64,000 nt of DNA from Nitrosomonas sp. JL21 (lineage in GTDB: Bacteria; Pseudomonadota; Gammaproteobacteria; Burkholderiales; Nitrosomonadaceae), in contig NZ_QRCB01000011.1 in assembly GCF_009833095.1 (NCBI RefSeq), forward strand, positions 1 to 64,000, in the 5' to 3' direction. A model generated the notes under the pieces. It did no database searches. It was not told where the DNA came from and saw nothing but the letters and a program-made list of their open reading frames with translations. Shown in pieces: positions 48,750 through 54,970 of this stretch (within the stretch, counting starts at the first letter, position 1; the number at the start of each line of letters is the position of its first letter). Position numbers and translations under genes: made by a program.

Positions 48750-49358
48750 TCAGTTTGCCGCGCGGACGATACGGGCGAGGTCGAGTAAATTACTGGCGCC
48801 GGTTTTGAGCATGATCTTGGATTTGTGGATTTCGACGGTGCGGTAACTGATGCCCAGGTAGGAGGCAATTTCCTTATTGGAACGCCCTTCGACAGCCAGA
48901 ATCATGACCTCTCGCTCACGCTCGGTCAGTTTGGCCAGGCAGGCAATGGCATCCTGGTTGTAGACCAGATCCTCAACCCGTTTTTCCGCTTCGATGAAAG
49001 CAGCTCGCACGCAGATCAAAAGCTTCTCCCGGATCACCGGCTTGGTGAGGAAATCAACCGCGCCAGCCTTCATCGCCCTCACGCTCATTGGAATATCGCC
49101 ATGCCCGGTCAGAAAAATCACCGGCAATACGATATTGCGCTGCGATAATTCTTCTTGCAGTTGCAATCCATCCATATCGGGCATTTTGACATCGATCAGG
49201 ATGCAACCGAAAAAATCCGGCCGGTAAGCGTCCAGGAAAGCTCTGGCGTTTTCAAAGGCGCGAACGCGAATCTGCGCCTGTTCGATCATCAGTGTGAGCG
49301 AATCGCGCACGGCAGCGTCGTCATCGACGATATAAACGATGGGTTCGCGACTTTTCAT
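48750..49358 (-). CDS. FixJ/NarL-type response regulator
   Basis: 202 residues: REC domain (about 6-120) with phospho-acceptor D56 (CILIDVKMPDMDG) and a LuxR-type helix-turn-helix (about 140-195; TEREREVMILAVEGRSNKEI, SYRTVEIHKSKIMLK). The REC-LuxR arrangement with a short linker fits the FixJ/TodT/StyR group. The gene overlaps the upstream kinase gene by four bases and is its cognate regulator. The genes transcribed in the other direction (secreted protein, sbtA, sbtB) begin 0.3 kb from the kinase start, and are the nearest plausible targets. Confidence 0.92.
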   Translation of the reverse strand: MKSREPIVYIVDDDAAVRDSLTLMIEQAQIRVRAFENARAFLDAYRPDFFGCILIDVKMPDMDGLQLQEELSQRNIVLPVIFLTGHGDIPMSVRAMKAGAVDFLTKPVIREKLLICVRAAFIEAEKRVEDLVYNQDAIACLAKLTEREREVMILAVEGRSNKEIASYLGISYRTVEIHKSKIMLKTGASNLLDLARIVRAAN

Positions 49359-50851
49359 GGTGCAAACGGTAACGAAAAATGAAATTTTGCGCCCTGGCCT
49401 GCGTCCGGATCAATCCAAAGCTGGCCGCCATTGGCTTCGATTAGAGCGCGGCTGATATCGAGACCCATGCCGATGCCGGTGGTTTTGGTCGTGAAAAAAG
49501 GCTCGAAGATGCGCTTGGCGATTGCGCGATCCACGCCCGGCCCGTTATCTTGCACGACGACCACCGCCATTTTTTTTCCTGCCATGATATGCCGGGTGGT
49601 GGTGATCGTTAACGTGGGAGCGTCCGATCCTGACATTGCCTCGACGGCATTGCGAAATAGGTTGACCAGGACTTTCTGCACCTGAATGCGATTGCACTGT
49701 ACAGGCGGCAAGTGCTGTTTCAGATGCAACACCAGGTCGAACCACCGGTCATCGTCGGTATACATATTATTCAACGCATCATGAATCAGGTCATTGAGAT
49801 TGATCTGCTCGGTGATCAGTTCACCCTTCTGCAGGAAGGCGAGCAATTCATGCAGGCTTCGGCCTGCGCGCTGCGCTTGTTCCACACAACCTTGCAGCGC
49901 ATTTTTCAAATTGTCCGAATTGAGAACATCATTGTTCAGGGCTTGCAATACCACTTCGCCGTACGCCGAAATCGCAGTCAGCGGTTGATTGAGTTCATGC
50001 GCGATCGCGGAAGCCGTTCGTTCCGCAACCTGCTGCTTGATCATGATTTCCGCTTCCTTGCGCTGCTTGTATTGCTTTTTCTGAAAATCTTTCTGCTCGG
50101 TAATGTCGCGTGTGACGCCGATCAGCCGATTCGCCTGTCCAGCTTCGAAATACACTTGGCCGCGCGCAAATATCCAGCGCTCAAGACCGTTGTTCGGATC
50201 GACGATGCGGTATTCCGCTTTGAATTCGCCATTGGTGGTTGGATCCATGGCTTTGTCGATCGCAGTTTGTCTGGCGGCACGATCTTCCGGATGGATGGCC
50301 GCTACGAATTCTTCGTAATTAACGGTTTTTTCCGAATGCTTGCCCCACAGAATGCGCATTTGCTCGTCCCAGTACACGATATTCCGTTTGAAGTCATAGT
50401 CGAAAATACCGAGTCCTGCTGCCTGCTTGGCCAATCGCAAACGTTCTTCGCTGGCCCGCAGCGCTTCCTGGGCATCCAGGCGCCGGTTGGCGATGTTGAA
50501 CGTGATCAGCACATGTAACTGGTGGGGCATGTTGATAGGGCTGAGACTGATATCCAACAGCATTTCTCTGCCATTGCGGTTCATGGCCACCAATTCATTG
50601 CCCGCTCCCATCGAACATTTGATCGGCCGGGTAAAGAAGAACTCTTGCTGATAGCGGTACTGTTTCCGATAGCGGGGCACGATCAGCATTTCAAGCGTCA
50701 GATCGCTCAACTCGTCGGCAGTATAACCGAACAGTTGCTCCGCGGCTGAATTGACTATTTCGATCCGGCCGGCATCGTCGGTCAACATCATCGCGTCTGC
50801 GCTGGCGTCGAATATCGCCTGGAAACTCAAGTTTTTGAGTGTGTCGATCAA
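49355..50851 (-). CDS. FixL-like PAS sensor histidine kinase
   Basis: 498 residues, cytoplasmic (no clear membrane segments). Two PAS-like domains: about 10-125 (AIFDASADAMMLTDDAGRIE) and 135-255 (AKQAAGLGIFDYDFKRNIVY, with a PAC segment ending ITEQKD). HisKA with H285 in AIAHELNQPLTAISAYGE, typical of the FixL/DctB class, then HATPase with DNGPGVDRAIAKRIFEPF and GIGMGLDISRALIE. No heme-binding FixL histidine could be assigned by eye, so the signal is unknown. It lies upstream of the FixJ-like gene with a four-base overlap. Confidence 0.9.
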   Translation of the reverse strand: MIDTLKNLSFQAIFDASADAMMLTDDAGRIEIVNSAAEQLFGYTADELSDLTLEMLIVPRYRKQYRYQQEFFFTRPIKCSMGAGNELVAMNRNGREMLLDISLSPINMPHQLHVLITFNIANRRLDAQEALRASEERLRLAKQAAGLGIFDYDFKRNIVYWDEQMRILWGKHSEKTVNYEEFVAAIHPEDRAARQTAIDKAMDPTTNGEFKAEYRIVDPNNGLERWIFARGQVYFEAGQANRLIGVTRDITEQKDFQKKQYKQRKEAEIMIKQQVAERTASAIAHELNQPLTAISAYGEVVLQALNNDVLNSDNLKNALQGCVEQAQRAGRSLHELLAFLQKGELITEQINLNDLIHDALNNMYTDDDRWFDLVLHLKQHLPPVQCNRIQVQKVLVNLFRNAVEAMSGSDAPTLTITTTRHIMAGKKMAVVVVQDNGPGVDRAIAKRIFEPFFTTKTTGIGMGLDISRALIEANGGQLWIDPDAGQGAKFHFSLPFAP

Positions 50852-50893
50852 AATATCTCCCTTTCTCTGAGCTTGGATTGAGATGCCGGTAAA

Positions 50894-50973
50894 GCTTACG
50901 ACAAAACGTAAGCAATTTCCATAAACTCATTGATCCATAAGTGTTTGCCCTTACGTGCTAGCACTAATATTAG
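50894..50973. promoter_or_regulatory. Palindromes between the FixLJ-like genes and the sbt operon
   Basis: A perfect inverted repeat GCTTACG-ACAAAA-CGTAAGC (50894-50913), a further CTTACG half-site at about 50949-50954, and a perfect CTAATATTAG palindrome (50964-50973) lie 40-120 bases upstream of the kinase start and about 190 bases before the secreted protein gene. They are candidate sites for the FixJ-like regulator, which could thereby control both divergent operons. The rest of the 308-base region holds no gene. Confidence 0.4.
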
Positions 50974-51159
50974 CGCCTGTCATTCTCTTGTAGCATTCAC
51001 AAAGGTCAGAAATCAACCATTCTTGCTCATAAATTCTTCACGAATGTCAAGCATATATGAGCAGGAAAAAAGAAAAGTTACTCATCGTCATGAATGACTA
51101 TCTTTTCTGGGATTTGTTCTCGCGGCGTCAAGTTAACGTTTAACCGACTGGAGACTGCA

Positions 51160-51540
51160 ATGAAAAACAGACTAATCGCTGATGCATTGATTGTGATTGT
51201 TCTTTCTATGCTACCGAATAGCCTAATGGCAGCCGATGCTTCTGCCAATCGACCGGCAGAGCAGAAATCGTCTCTTGAACGTACGTGCGAGCAACCCGCA
51301 CAACTGATTCCTATGCTGATGGGGCACACCAACCTGGCGCAATTTGCTTCATTGGGTCTGCAATTTCCCGAAGAAACGCTCGATCCGGTCAAAAAGGATC
51401 GAGTCATTCAAATTCGTGAAACACAGCAACCTTTAAAGCTCAACGTTCCTTGTTTGCTTAACCACAGTGAGGTGAAGTACGACGGCATGCACAGGATAAC
51501 GCCATGTCGTCCGGCAGGACAGCGTTTCATGAGCATATGA
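51160..51540 (+). CDS. Small secreted protein upstream of sbtA
   Basis: 126 residues from the ATG at 51160 (MKNRLIADALIVIVL; GGAGACTGCA upstream). It has a signal peptide ending near SLMA-A (24). The mature protein is small, with three cysteines (ERTCEQPAQLIP, NVPCLLNHS and TPCRPAG). I do not recognise the family. It lies 49 bases before sbtA on the same strand and may belong to the bicarbonate transporter unit. Its role there is unknown. Confidence 0.55.
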   Translation: MKNRLIADALIVIVLSMLPNSLMAADASANRPAEQKSSLERTCEQPAQLIPMLMGHTNLAQFASLGLQFPEETLDPVKKDRVIQIRETQQPLKLNVPCLLNHSEVKYDGMHRITPCRPAGQRFMSI

Positions 51541-51589
51541 CCATCGGGTTTTTCTTGTTAATTTAATTTTGCGTATAAGGAGTATCACT

Positions 51590-52612
51590 ATGTCAATCTC
51601 CAGTCTTCTCGTACCGGCGATATTGTTCTTTGCGTTGGGTATGTTTGCTTGTCTCATCAAATCGGATCTCAAATTTCCGCCAGACATGCACAAAATGATC
51701 GTGATCTATTTGCTGATCGGTATTGGGCTGCATGGCGGCAAGGAACTTGCCGGATCCAATATGGCGGATGCTCTACCCGCGGTATGGGCTGCGCTTGCAT
51801 TTGGATGCGGACTTCCTATCATCGCGTATATCATCTTGCGATGGTTGGGGAAAATCGATCCACTCAATGCCGCAGCCATTTCCGCGCATTATGGCTCGGT
51901 GAGCGCAGGTACTTACATGACGGCAGTTGCTTTCCTGGCTGGTCTGGGCGTCACGTACGAAGCTTATCCCGTCATTATGCTGGCGATCATGGAATCTCCG
52001 GCGATCATGATCGGCTTGGTTCTGGCGGGGTATTCCCGTCGTATTCTGGGCGGTGCGGCCAAGAATGACAAAGGAATGATGAAGCATCTGGTCATCGATG
52101 CCTTTACCAACGGTAGTATTCTGTTGTTGTTCGGTGCAATGGCGATTGGCTGGATGGTTTCGGAACCCAGCTACAAAAAGATCGAGCCTTTCTTTGAACT
52201 GATTTTCATGGGTGCGCTGTGTATTTTCCTGTGTGATATGGGGATGGAAGCTGGCAAAAGATTATCTGAATTCAAGTCGGTGGGTGTTTTCCTGGTCAGC
52301 TTTGGCATTGCCATGCCCTTGATTGGTGCGGCAGTCGGTTTGTTCGTGGGTCATTTCCTGCTGGGTTATTCCGTAGGAGGCATCACGCTGGTGACTGTGT
52401 TGGCCGCGAGCTGCTCCTATATTGCGGTTCCCCCCGCAATGCGGCTGGCGGTTCCGGAAGCCAATCCGTCGTTTTATCTGACCTTGTCGCTCGGCGTTAC
52501 TTTCCCGTTCAATGTGGTGGTCGGTATTCCCAGCTATTATGCGGCAGCGCAGTATTTGCATGAAACTTATTATCCATGGGGTACGGTAGCGCAGGTCGCC
52601 CTAAATCAATGA
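51590..52612 (+). CDS. sbtA: Sodium-dependent bicarbonate permease SbtA
   Basis: 340 residues from the ATG at 51590 (ATAAGGAGT upstream); the longer reading from 51569 is not supported. About ten membrane segments in two inverted halves. The motifs HYGSVSAGTYMTAVAFL and ASCSYIAVPPAMRLAVPEANP are the discontinuous-helix regions that carry the bicarbonate and sodium sites in SbtA (PF05982). It imports bicarbonate at the inner membrane for carbon fixation. It is followed by the PII-like SbtB gene 52 bases later. This pairing is well known from cyanobacteria and also occurs in other autotrophs. Confidence 0.9.
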   Translation: MSISSLLVPAILFFALGMFACLIKSDLKFPPDMHKMIVIYLLIGIGLHGGKELAGSNMADALPAVWAALAFGCGLPIIAYIILRWLGKIDPLNAAAISAHYGSVSAGTYMTAVAFLAGLGVTYEAYPVIMLAIMESPAIMIGLVLAGYSRRILGGAAKNDKGMMKHLVIDAFTNGSILLLFGAMAIGWMVSEPSYKKIEPFFELIFMGALCIFLCDMGMEAGKRLSEFKSVGVFLVSFGIAMPLIGAAVGLFVGHFLLGYSVGGITLVTVLAASCSYIAVPPAMRLAVPEANPSFYLTLSLGVTFPFNVVVGIPSYYAAAQYLHETYYPWGTVAQVALNQ

Positions 52613-52664
52613 TGAATGACTGTTTTGATATTGAACTGAATCAATTTAACTTTTGGAGAGAATC

Positions 52665-52994
52665 ATGGCGCTAGAACCAGGAATGTTACTCAGAATGAAG
52701 CGAATAGACGTTGTCGTCACCGGGGAATCGCTCGAACATGTCATCAAAATGTTCAAAGATGCCCAGGTGCGTGGTTACACTGTTATTAAAGAAGCCGGTG
52801 GGCTGGGTTCAACCGGGGAACGCAATCCTGAAGATTATATTCTGCGGGAACCGAATGCGGTCATCGTGGTGGCCTGCGAAGAAACCCAGGCGGAAAAAAT
52901 TGTCAAAATCCTGCAACCCGAGTTGAAACGATTCGGCGGCATGTGCCTCGTCTCCGATTGTGAATGGGTGACAGGTCCGGCCGTGTCTTATTGA
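52665..52994 (+). CDS. sbtB: PII-like signalling protein SbtB
   Basis: 109 residues from the ATG at 52665 (TTTTGGAGAGAATC upstream). It has the small ferredoxin-like PII fold: strand MKRIDVVVTGESLEHVIKMFK, T-loop region (residues about 36-56, with GGLGSTGERNPED) and the last strand EWVTGPAVSY. It regulates SbtA by binding adenine nucleotides such as cAMP. The cyanobacterial C-terminal loop with a redox-active cysteine pair is absent. It closes the sbtA-sbtB unit; hairpins at 53065-53120 follow. Confidence 0.88.
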   Translation: MALEPGMLLRMKRIDVVVTGESLEHVIKMFKDAQVRGYTVIKEAGGLGSTGERNPEDYILREPNAVIVVACEETQAEKIVKILQPELKRFGGMCLVSDCEWVTGPAVSY

Positions 52995-53120: not shown

Positions 53121-53443
53121 GTTTTGCCAGCTCATTGCCTATTGATCCCATAACTGGGTGCTGCCTGACAGAAATTAAGAAATGAAGGTTGCGGCACAGT
53201 GCATTTTTGCTTCCCTCTGCACTCTCTCACCGGTCACCTTGAAGAGAGAAATTCCTTTCTGTGATTCTCGAGAAGTTGCCAGGAACCGGGTAGTGCCCGG
53301 CAGTACCCTGAAGTCACTAGGGGTTTGCGCTTAGGTATTCGCACGGATTTTTCTGACCTTCATTCACAAATAGAATTTGAGCAACTGTCGATCCACTGTG
53401 TTGATTTTTTAAATGTGAAGAATAGTACTGAAAGGAGAATAAA
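53121..53443. other. Intergenic region upstream of the porin gene
   Basis: About 320 bases without a gene. It contains GC-rich inverted-repeat-like sequence around 53280-53330 (GGGTAGTGCCCGGCAGTACCC) that could fold as a leader structure. AAAGGAGAA precedes the porin start. A promoter could not be assigned by eye. Confidence 0.3.
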
Positions 53444-54970
53444 ATGACATGGAAGCAAATTCAAATTACCTGTTGGACAGTATTTTTCATTATTGGGTGT
53501 TTCCTATGGAGTCCTCACCTCTTTGCTGCTGAAGCTGAAAAAACCCCGCCGGCTCAGAAAATTCCACCCGACCCATCGCAGAAATCGATCATCCTCCTGA
53601 ACAATAACACCGCAGCTAATGGGACAAATGGTGCCAATGGTACAAACGGTGAGTCGTTCAGTGCGCAGGAAACGGTTGGGCATACCCGCTTCGACTTCGA
53701 TCGGTTGACCGGATTGATGGAAAACCATAAAACGCCGCTTGCCGCACTGGCGCCGGATTGGCTCAATCTGGCGGTTGAGCATCGTACTCGTTATGACGTG
53801 TTCGACAATGGATTTACCCGGACTATTCCGGGTTTTAATGATCAGATCCACCAAAGAACGCGGTTTCTAATGGAAATTCAGAAAATCATCGATCCGCTGC
53901 GTTTTACCCTCGAAATCACCGATATCCGCGCGCCGCTCGCGAATTTCGGCCAAGATCATTCACCCGCATTTGCCAACCACTTTGATTTCACGCAACTGCA
54001 TCTTGATTTGATCACGAAAGATTTGTTGGGAACGGGTTATGCTGCAAAATTCGAAGTCGGGCGGCTGGTGATGGATTTCGGCGAAGCACGCTTGATCGGT
54101 GGTCATCGGTGGGGGCCATTTACGCCCACGTTTGATGGGATGCAATTAACCGTTGGCAATGACAAGGAAAAATGGGGGCTTCGGGTATTTGGCACCCGGC
54201 CCGTCAACCGGGAACCGACGCACCTGGATTGGAATACGCCGGAAACTTATTTTTCTGGCGCGCAAGTCACCAGCCGGCATTTGCCCTGGGCAAATGTCGA
54301 TGCCTATTTCTTTCAGTTGAATGAAGGAAATAAGCTCAGAAAACGAAATCTGTCGACGACAGGCTTCAGGTTATTTGCCAAGCCAACCGCAGGGAAAATG
54401 GATTATGAAATCGAATCGATGTATCAATTTGGCGATACTCAGGACACCAGTGTTTTCGCGCATCGGCATCATGGAGAAGTAGGCTATTCATTCAAGACGG
54501 CGATGCCTTTCCGGTTGATTTATCTGTTCGATTATTCTTCCGGCGACCGCGATCCAAATAAGAATTTCGATATTCTGTACGCGAAACGCCGGGTCGAATA
54601 TGGTCCCACCGGTATGTTCGGTCCATTTTTCCCATCCAATCTGTTTTCGCCTGTGGGCTTTCGTGCAACCTTCATCCCTACGCCCACCGTCAGGCTGATG
54701 ATGTCACATCGGGCCTATTGGCTGGCCAATAAACATGGCGCTTATGTCGGCAGCGGTTTGCAGGATCCGACGGGGCGCGCAGGCAGTTTCCTGGGTAATA
54801 TGCTGGATGTCAGCATCGGTTGGGATCCGCAGTGGAGTTTCTTGAAACGCGTCAGCTTCGATATTGGCTATAGCCATATCTTCAAGGGCGATTTCTTTGA
54901 AAAAGTGCCGCAAAGCCCGGGTATGGCCGATACCAATTATGGCTATACGATGGCAACCCTCAAATTCTAG
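53444..54970 (+). CDS. Outer-membrane beta-barrel protein, alginate-export-like
   Basis: 508 residues. Signal peptide with cleavage near LFA-A (28). A low-complexity stretch NGTNGANGTNGES (about 59-71) precedes the barrel. From about 85 on, alternating hydrophobic/polar strands end in a terminal aromatic residue (MATLKF), the outer-membrane signature. The repeats (RTRYDVFDNGF, FGTRPVNREPTH, and FDYSSGDRDPNKNFD) recall the alginate-export porin family (PF13372), found in many non-alginate organisms too. It probably admits small anionic solutes, which could include bicarbonate given the neighbour genes; this last point is speculation. Confidence 0.75.
   Translation: MTWKQIQITCWTVFFIIGCFLWSPHLFAAEAEKTPPAQKIPPDPSQKSIILLNNNTAANGTNGANGTNGESFSAQETVGHTRFDFDRLTGLMENHKTPLAALAPDWLNLAVEHRTRYDVFDNGFTRTIPGFNDQIHQRTRFLMEIQKIIDPLRFTLEITDIRAPLANFGQDHSPAFANHFDFTQLHLDLITKDLLGTGYAAKFEVGRLVMDFGEARLIGGHRWGPFTPTFDGMQLTVGNDKEKWGLRVFGTRPVNREPTHLDWNTPETYFSGAQVTSRHLPWANVDAYFFQLNEGNKLRKRNLSTTGFRLFAKPTAGKMDYEIESMYQFGDTQDTSVFAHRHHGEVGYSFKTAMPFRLIYLFDYSSGDRDPNKNFDILYAKRRVEYGPTGMFGPFFPSNLFSPVGFRATFIPTPTVRLMMSHRAYWLANKHGAYVGSGLQDPTGRAGSFLGNMLDVSIGWDPQWSFLKRVSFDIGYSHIFKGDFFEKVPQSPGMADTNYGYTMATLKF

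Follow-up and report, generated by a model that had tools for sequence, protein, structure and literature searches.

A FixJ-type two-component pair appears to have been rewired, in one branch of Nitrosomonas, to switch on a bicarbonate importer together with an outer-membrane channel. We analyzed a 64,000-nt stretch of Nitrosomonas sp. JL21 (hereafter the window; contig C11, genome of 3.17 Mb), in which the genes of a sensor histidine kinase (HK) and a FixJ-type response regulator (RR) diverge from a small open reading frame (ORF), sbtA and an sbtB-like gene, with a porin-like gene downstream. In the reading that we favor, to which we give a probability of about 0.75, this pair was captured once within Nitrosomonas and would control sbtAB and the porin through a 38-bp compound element present at both promoters. 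An earlier note on this DNA had proposed two-component control of carbon uptake from gene order and from two inverted repeats in the shared intergenic region. On sequence grounds the case for such control of sbtAB has become stronger than gene order could make it, because the divergent order is kept in 28 of 29 genomes, a FixJ-type element with a fixed distance to the −10 hexamer precedes both sbt and the porin, and element and kinase co-occur throughout the genus; the operators that the note had named did not hold up.

A compound FixJ-like element at a fixed distance from a −10-like hexamer

We aligned 27 sbt loci, counting both members of two near-copy pairs (L041/L074 and L042/L082; L041 is the uncultured Nitrosomonas KLAP95, L042 Nitrosomonas sp. 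Nm166 and L043 a Nitrosomonas metagenome-assembled genome). Mean pairwise identity was 0.82 in the 38-bp element when compared with 0.38 for positions 51004–51150. The element is built of two overlapping dyads, the first of which resembles the published FixJ site; the second was recognized by eye (Table 1). The second dyad reaches its ideal form, TACGTGT-N2-ACACGTA, in deep relatives, where the element reads by eye as a pair of overlapping 7-2-7 dyads, TAAGGGT-TA-ACCCTTA with TACGTGT-CA-A[CT]ACGTA. At three or fewer mismatches the window has two matches to the FixJ site vs. 0.29 expected. The other sbt loci match it at 10–13 positions, which is not striking by itself; its combination with the spacing is. 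A combined pattern of both published FixJ parts, which was written knowing the element, had its sole perfect window match at 50938.

Spacing was analyzed in promoters whose site scored >20, 25 distinct ones of sbt and 28 of the porin. The hexamer TAnnnT was found at an offset of exactly 54 bp from where the element starts in all 25 sbt promoters and in 27 of the 28 porin promoters, and the next best offset was shared by 6 and 2 promoters, respectively. If the hexamer is placed at −12 to −7, sbt transcription in the window would begin near position 51003 and that of the porin near 53383. Relative to the sbt start so placed, the dyad centers fall at about −57.5 and −43.5, TAAG at about −65, and ANNAATAT ends at about −33. 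At fixK, FixJ binds the 16-bp site TAAGTAATTTCCCTTA and protects (−69, −44) and (−57, −31); TAAG lies there at about −64, and CSNAATWT at −33 (PMC4999443). The predicted distance of the element from the start site agrees with these footprints, and we predict that the RR binds the element. A sigma-54 promoter (GCACG-N4-TTGC; many relatives read AGCACGAATATTGC) was rejected on two grounds: at −12 the window reads TTAG, and TAnnnT stands at +54 in 25/25 sbt promoters.

The same layout bears on the sign of control. A proximal site over a poor −35, followed by a −10 at fixed distance, is the arrangement of activated FixJ and DevR promoters, and it suggests that the RR would activate rather than repress. 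Repression, in which the RR would block the sbtAB promoter until the kinase relieves it, could draw on two observations: a candidate HK promoter on the opposite strand, seen by eye, overlaps the element, where binding would repress, and in R. palustris the unphosphorylated form of FixJ acts as a repressor of nif genes (PMC13327599). We consider it unlikely in view of the promoter layout.

A weight matrix, for which 29 distinct sites upstream of kinase genes served as the training set, with no porin copies downstream of sbtB among them, also detected separate porin promoters in the window and in relatives, mostly 83–90 bp before the start codon. Seven HK copies in a set of 58 are directly divergent from the porin, and there the two promoters are one region. 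Porin-linked kinase paralogues (~61%; L100, L102–L105) carry an altered element, TTATGTGATTANTGNTACGTGCTTACGCGTATNTTGC, which suggests that the operator diverged along with the paralogue.

Element and kinase co-occur across Nitrosomonas

The arrangement was read from the retrieved neighborhoods of 60 loci. SbtA of this type (88–100% identity) was present in 29 of the 85 Nitrosomonas genomes, and the HK was divergent from it in 28 of these 29, a count that includes contig-end cases (e.g., G021 and G080) and one genome with only the first 48 HK residues (G030). In the 29th genome (G061) the HK is interrupted by five stops; its porin-side element (L131) is retained despite the broken kinase. At E ≤ 1e-75 the HK was confined to the genus, with 53 positives among 125 genomes of the family.

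The pattern TAAGGGNNNNCNCTTANGTNNNNNNACGNAT, at two or fewer mismatches, gave 82 matches in 46 of the 85 genomes, and the reversed control gave 19. It was matched in 44/53 genomes with the HK vs. 2/32 without it; the latter two are G061, with the broken kinase, and G046, where the match is weak. In the genome of JL21 itself only the sbt and porin promoters were recovered (control, 0), and a fixK or other Crp/Fnr gene was not among the targets at this threshold; at three or fewer mismatches two further sites appeared, and the control also gave 2. Among 48 genomes with the porin, the element precedes it in 29 of the 30 that belong to the sbt/porin kinase clade and in 0 of the 18 others (score cut-off 19, best porin per genome, G061 counted within the clade). 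In deep relatives the element accompanies the HK to other neighbors (c5, CBS and porin genes). Unlinked element copies were also seen in deep relatives (L165, L167, L169, L170, L173, L174 and L184) upstream of genes for an 84–87-aa protein together with a MauG/peroxidase-like cytochrome (by eye), of Hsp20 and of a cold-shock gene.

The element might instead belong to another regulator, for example a LysR, CbbR or Fnr relative, with the HK–RR genes merely adjoining sbtAB. Adjoining genes are often functionally unrelated, and the single SbtA above the cut-off outside the genus among 399 genomes of the order, which is also the closest one (G454, locus L248, 58%), has the classical arrangement, with sbtA divergent from a LysR-type gene. 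Against this stand the dyad form, spacing and start-site distance, which are those of FixJ (PMC4999443), the movement of the element with the HK to c5, CBS and porin neighbors, and the co-occurrence given above. We hold this explanation to be improbable.

Other SbtA types have other partners. SbtA at 73–77% identity was found in four genomes (G002, G069, G070 and G072), this HK being beside none of them; in three, an OmpR-type RR and a HisKA kinase lie upstream in the same direction. A similar pair lies upstream of a second, ~42%-identical SbtA in G003, G074 and G083 (the Pfam assignment of the OmpR/HisKA pair was made on that of G002). SbtA types of 42–77% identity at seven loci (L073, L185–L187, L194, L195 and L249) stand behind a HisKA/OmpR pair, several of them next to a URO-D (hemE-like) gene, and the second SbtA copy of JL21, on contig C7, is among those behind such a pair. 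It thus seems that two-component systems became partners of SbtA on more than one occasion.

Several observations weigh against capture of the FixJ-type pair by sbtAB and the porin. Identity to the FixJ site is uneven across the sbt loci (10–13 of 16), and in several loci the score does not exceed that of a chance match at another place within the same 460 bp. In L088, L090, L095 and L097 CTACGT replaces ATAAGGG at the first half-site. The sbt element of the window is itself atypical (TAAGTG, CTAATATTAG), and the porin copy of the window is among the weaker ones. One clade member (G017) has a porin score of −3.5 and retains only a TAAGTGC-TT-GCACTTA dyad. Finally, the HK-upstream sites helped to define the pattern behind the 44/53 vs. 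2/32 contrast, and the genomes of the genus share ancestry, so that the co-occurrence counts are non-independent.

The kinase is FixL-like in its core and probably not a heme-based oxygen sensor

The HK is a cytoplasmic PAS-PAS kinase with the domain order PAS (10–112), PAS_3 (158–246), HisKA with AIAHELNQPL, and HATPase_c. Its core matched FixL kinase chimeras best among Protein Data Bank (PDB) entries (chains of 4gcz and 8a3u, 156 and 147 bits), and the RR matched FixJ (5xso, 161.6 bits) and then 1yio (154.0 bits, "response regulatory protein"), which we take to be StyR. The phosphorylatable residues are invariant, His285 of the HK in 58/58 homologues and the Asp of the RR in 52/52. When the first PAS domain was aligned with FixL (8js5, second alignment), the positions that we take to be the proximal heme His and the distal Arg were occupied by Tyr65 and Asn85; the FixL-type heme-ligating His and distal Arg are absent from this domain of the window HK. 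Heme-based oxygen sensing by the window HK is unlikely, because both FixL positions have changed. The designation "FixLJ-like" thus fits the kinase core, the RR and the DNA site, but does not extend to the sensing of oxygen.

A tree built from 58 kinases (rows <450 aa left out, midpoint root only) placed the sbt- and porin-linked HKs in one clade of 35 rows with 100/100 support. None of these rows carries His at the position in question (32 Tyr, 2 Phe, 1 gap), whereas His is found in the nearest outgroups and in the c5-linked copies (10/10 of those with a residue). Since Tyr or Phe replaces the FixL-type His in the first PAS domain of the clade, the input is probably not heme-bound oxygen. A deep HK homologue is divergent from a CBS-domain gene at eight loci (L111, L113–L118 and L125), mostly with an S30AE/cold-shock hibernation-like gene, and near some of them lie genes for Hsp20, a nitroreductase and a small PAS-like protein (c5). 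In the HK group linked to CBS, ribosome-hibernation, cold-shock, Hsp20 and nitroreductase genes, 5 copies carry Tyr and 3 carry His. This neighborhood looks like a stress or low-oxygen regulon; for the deep relatives a link to DosR-like or low-oxygen regulons may be conjectured. The PAS His of the deep relatives was rejected as proof of heme, given that the PAS chain 10jx also has a His and that the CBS group is mixed.

A true FixLJ oxygen switch, in which a PAS heme would sense oxygen and lower RR phosphorylation so that sbtAB and the porin rise as oxygen falls, would fit the FixL and FixJ relationships of the two proteins, the FixJ-like site and spacing, the many deep homologues with His at the heme position and the stress-type genes that some of these adjoin (CBS, ribosome-hibernation, Hsp20, nitroreductase). 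It conflicts with Tyr65 and Asn85 and with the lack of His in all 35 clade rows (0/35), and we give it little credence. In the most parsimonious history, sbtAB and the porin became targets of an older pair, one beside stress-type genes, a single time, and it was on this branch that the His disappeared.

The perfect repeats of the intergenic region are not conserved

The earlier note had drawn attention to GCTTACG-N6-CGTAAGC and to the palindrome CTAATATTAG. Both occur in the window, and neither is a conserved signal. The former is rare (two window matches at two or fewer mismatches vs. 0.11 expected), but among the 27 aligned sbt loci only 1 has it in perfect form, and even the sister genome (HK identity 91%) has lost the right arm. 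The palindrome is present in 3 of 27 rows, namely the window and the sister genome, the latter counted twice. The left-arm box has a mean pairwise identity of 0.90 and the right arm one of 0.45, as compared with 0.82 in the 38-bp element. Both repeats were rejected as operators on this absence of conservation across the sbt loci; that GCTTACG-N6-CGTAAGC is the operator, as its perfection, its rarity and its strongly conserved left-arm box might suggest, is very improbable with one intact copy in 27 loci and a right-arm identity of 0.45. The left-arm box, AGCTTACGACAAAA, is possibly an autoregulatory site. At 50909–50924 the FixJ site is matched a second time at 13 of 16 positions (three mismatches), overlapping the right arm of the repeat; this match was set aside, being absent from the sister genome.

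Genes and domains of the locus

The features of the window are collected in Table 1.

Table 1. Position and properties of the genes and DNA sites of the HK–RR, sbt and porin region (window coordinates; HTH, helix-turn-helix)
Feature	Position	Strand	Properties
RR gene	48750..49358	−	FixJ-type response regulator; Response_reg + GerE (GerE/LuxR HTH); Asp56
HK gene	49355..50851	−	Sensor histidine kinase; TTG start; GGGAGA ribosome site
Shared intergenic region	50852–51159		308 bases, between HK–RR and sbt genes
Conserved box AGCTTACGACAAAA	50893..50906	unstranded	Left arm of repeat, in presumed HK leader; present in 26/27
GCTTACG-N6-CGTAAGC	50894..50913	unstranded	Perfect inverted repeat; only perfect copy in the window
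Compound element, sbt promoter	50937..50974	+	38 bp; consensus ATAAGGGTTTGCMCTTACGTGTCAGCACGRATATTGCC
First dyad TAAGTGTTTGCCCTTA	50938..50953	+	13/16 identical to published FixJ site TAAGTAATTTCCCTTA; predicted center about −57.5
Second dyad	50952..50967	+	TACGTGC..GCACTAA, by eye; overlaps first dyad; predicted center about −43.5
Palindrome CTAATATTAG	50964–50973		Occurs literally in the window
TAGCAT, −10-like hexamer	50991..50996	+	Exactly 54 bp from sbt element start
Small exported ORF	51160..51540	+	ATG start; N-terminus signal-peptide-like; fast-evolving; precedes sbtA
sbtA	51590..52612	+	Na+-dependent bicarbonate transporter family; PF05982, E 1.8e-107; ATG 51590
sbtB-like P-II gene	52665..52994	+	PF00543; ATG 52665
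Second element copy	53317..53354	+	Before porin; CTAGGGGTTTGCGCTTAGGTATTCGCACGGATTTTTCT; score 31.8; pattern with 1 mismatch
TAGAAT, −10-like hexamer	53371..53376	+	54 bp from porin element start
Porin-like gene	53444..54970	+	Outer-membrane; Alginate_exp PF13372; directly downstream of sbtB

ORFs and Pfam domains bore out the gene set of the earlier note (a PAS-type kinase and a FixJ-like RR divergent from a secreted protein, sbtA and sbtB), and the extent that it gave for the shared region was correct. The HK stop and RR start overlap as ATGA, and a plausible ribosome site precedes the ATG of the small ORF, of sbtA and of the sbtB-like gene. The Sbt_1 domain (PF05982) spans SbtA at full length (positions 1–308 of 308), and the protein matches Synechocystis SbtA (Slr1512, PDB 7cye) at 111.5 bits; its putative substrate is bicarbonate. 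The PII-like partner is encoded next to sbtA (PF00543), and its sole PDB matches were 5d4n and 5d4l, which we take to be CPII of Thiomonas, with bicarbonate-dependent nucleotide binding. A small signal-peptide-like ORF with a GGAG-type site (45–126 aa) lies between promoter and sbtA in 24 of the 27 sbt rows, and possibly encodes an exported peptide or a leader. Bacterial microcompartment (BMC) shell proteins (PF00936) were found neither in the JL21 genome nor in the 29 genomes with this SbtA, so that a carboxysome-type concentrating mechanism is absent there; 7 of the 85 genus genomes were positive.

Discussion

We propose that the HK phosphorylates the FixJ-type RR, and that dimers of RR-P would bind the element with the distal dyad near −57 and the proximal one near −43, overlapping the poor −35. 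RR-P would then recruit RNA polymerase to the −10 at +54, as FixJ does at fixK. From the element at 50937 the transcript of the small ORF, sbtA and sbtB would be switched on, and from the copy at 53317 the outer-membrane porin, the two forming a module for the entry of bicarbonate (or another anion). RR-P may also control its own synthesis through the possible HK–RR promoter on the opposite strand. The input would probably be a cytoplasmic cue other than heme-bound oxygen, and it is the target genes that point to "carbon" as the object of control. The system would have been captured, once in Nitrosomonas, from an older kinase–regulator pair beside stress-type genes.

The nearest known system is FixL–FixJ of rhizobia, with a PAS-PAS kinase of related HisKA/HATPase core and a FixJ-type RR. 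The likeness extends to the fixK promoter, with its 16-bp TAAG-N8-CTTA dyad (13/16 in the window), two adjacent sites near −57/−44 and AATWT near −33. Unlike FixL, the Nitrosomonas HK lacks the heme His and Arg, its putative targets are sbtAB and the porin and not fixK/nifA, and at E ≤ 1e-75 it is found in a single genus of the family. StyS–StyR and TodS–TodT are catabolic members of the FixJ family: 1yio, presumably StyR, is the second closest structure to the RR. The StyS and TodS kinases are larger multidomain proteins, and these systems control aromatic catabolism instead. Like the control proposed for the RR, that by StyR is local to an operon and uses a site near −40.

Cyanobacterial SbtA–SbtB, under LysR-type control, shares with the Nitrosomonas locus an SbtA family transporter and a PII-like protein downstream. 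The Nitrosomonas locus differs in its putative two-component control, in the lack of carboxysome shell genes in the genome and in its P-II protein, which is closest in the PDB to 5d4n/5d4l rather than to cyanobacterial SbtB. The other Nitrosomonas sbtAB loci, with an OmpR-type RR and HK upstream, likewise have two-component genes next to sbtAB, but that pair is unrelated (OmpR/HisKA), co-oriented and downstream of a URO-D (hemE-like) gene.

FixJ-type control is known; we did not find such control of sbtAB and a porin, with a non-heme sensor, described. Literature searches, which miss most subscription journals, returned no report on two-component control of sbtA in a nitrifier. For Nitrosomonas and SbtA no literature was found, and for Nitrosomonas and FixJ only matches that were irrelevant as judged by title or abstract; those listed for sbtA with two-component systems or response regulators were, by title, mostly cyanobacterial. 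The accessible parts of a paper on oxygen limitation in N. europaea (PMC6967387) and of a proteomics paper on ammonia-oxidizing bacteria (PMC5960693) contain nothing on sbtA or this kinase.

A fuller scenario, which we offer as tentative and put at somewhat under an even chance, is that a FixJ-type regulator of stress or oxygen responses was captured by a bicarbonate-import module in one clade of Nitrosomonas. The His would have given way to Tyr or Phe on the same branch as the change of targets, the operator would have been copied to the porin promoter and LysR-type control of SbtA replaced; the entry of inorganic carbon would then be tied to a new, non-heme cytoplasmic signal, without carboxysomes.

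A concrete operator, a start site and a regulon of two gene groups can thus be proposed for inorganic-carbon import in ammonia oxidizers, the drivers of nitrification. The locus and its relatives would also provide a natural series in which a sensor–regulator pair changed its sensing residue and its targets, and kept a site like that of the distant rhizobial FixJ. If the capture is real, no earlier case of a nitrifier sbtA under two-component control is known to us from our literature search.

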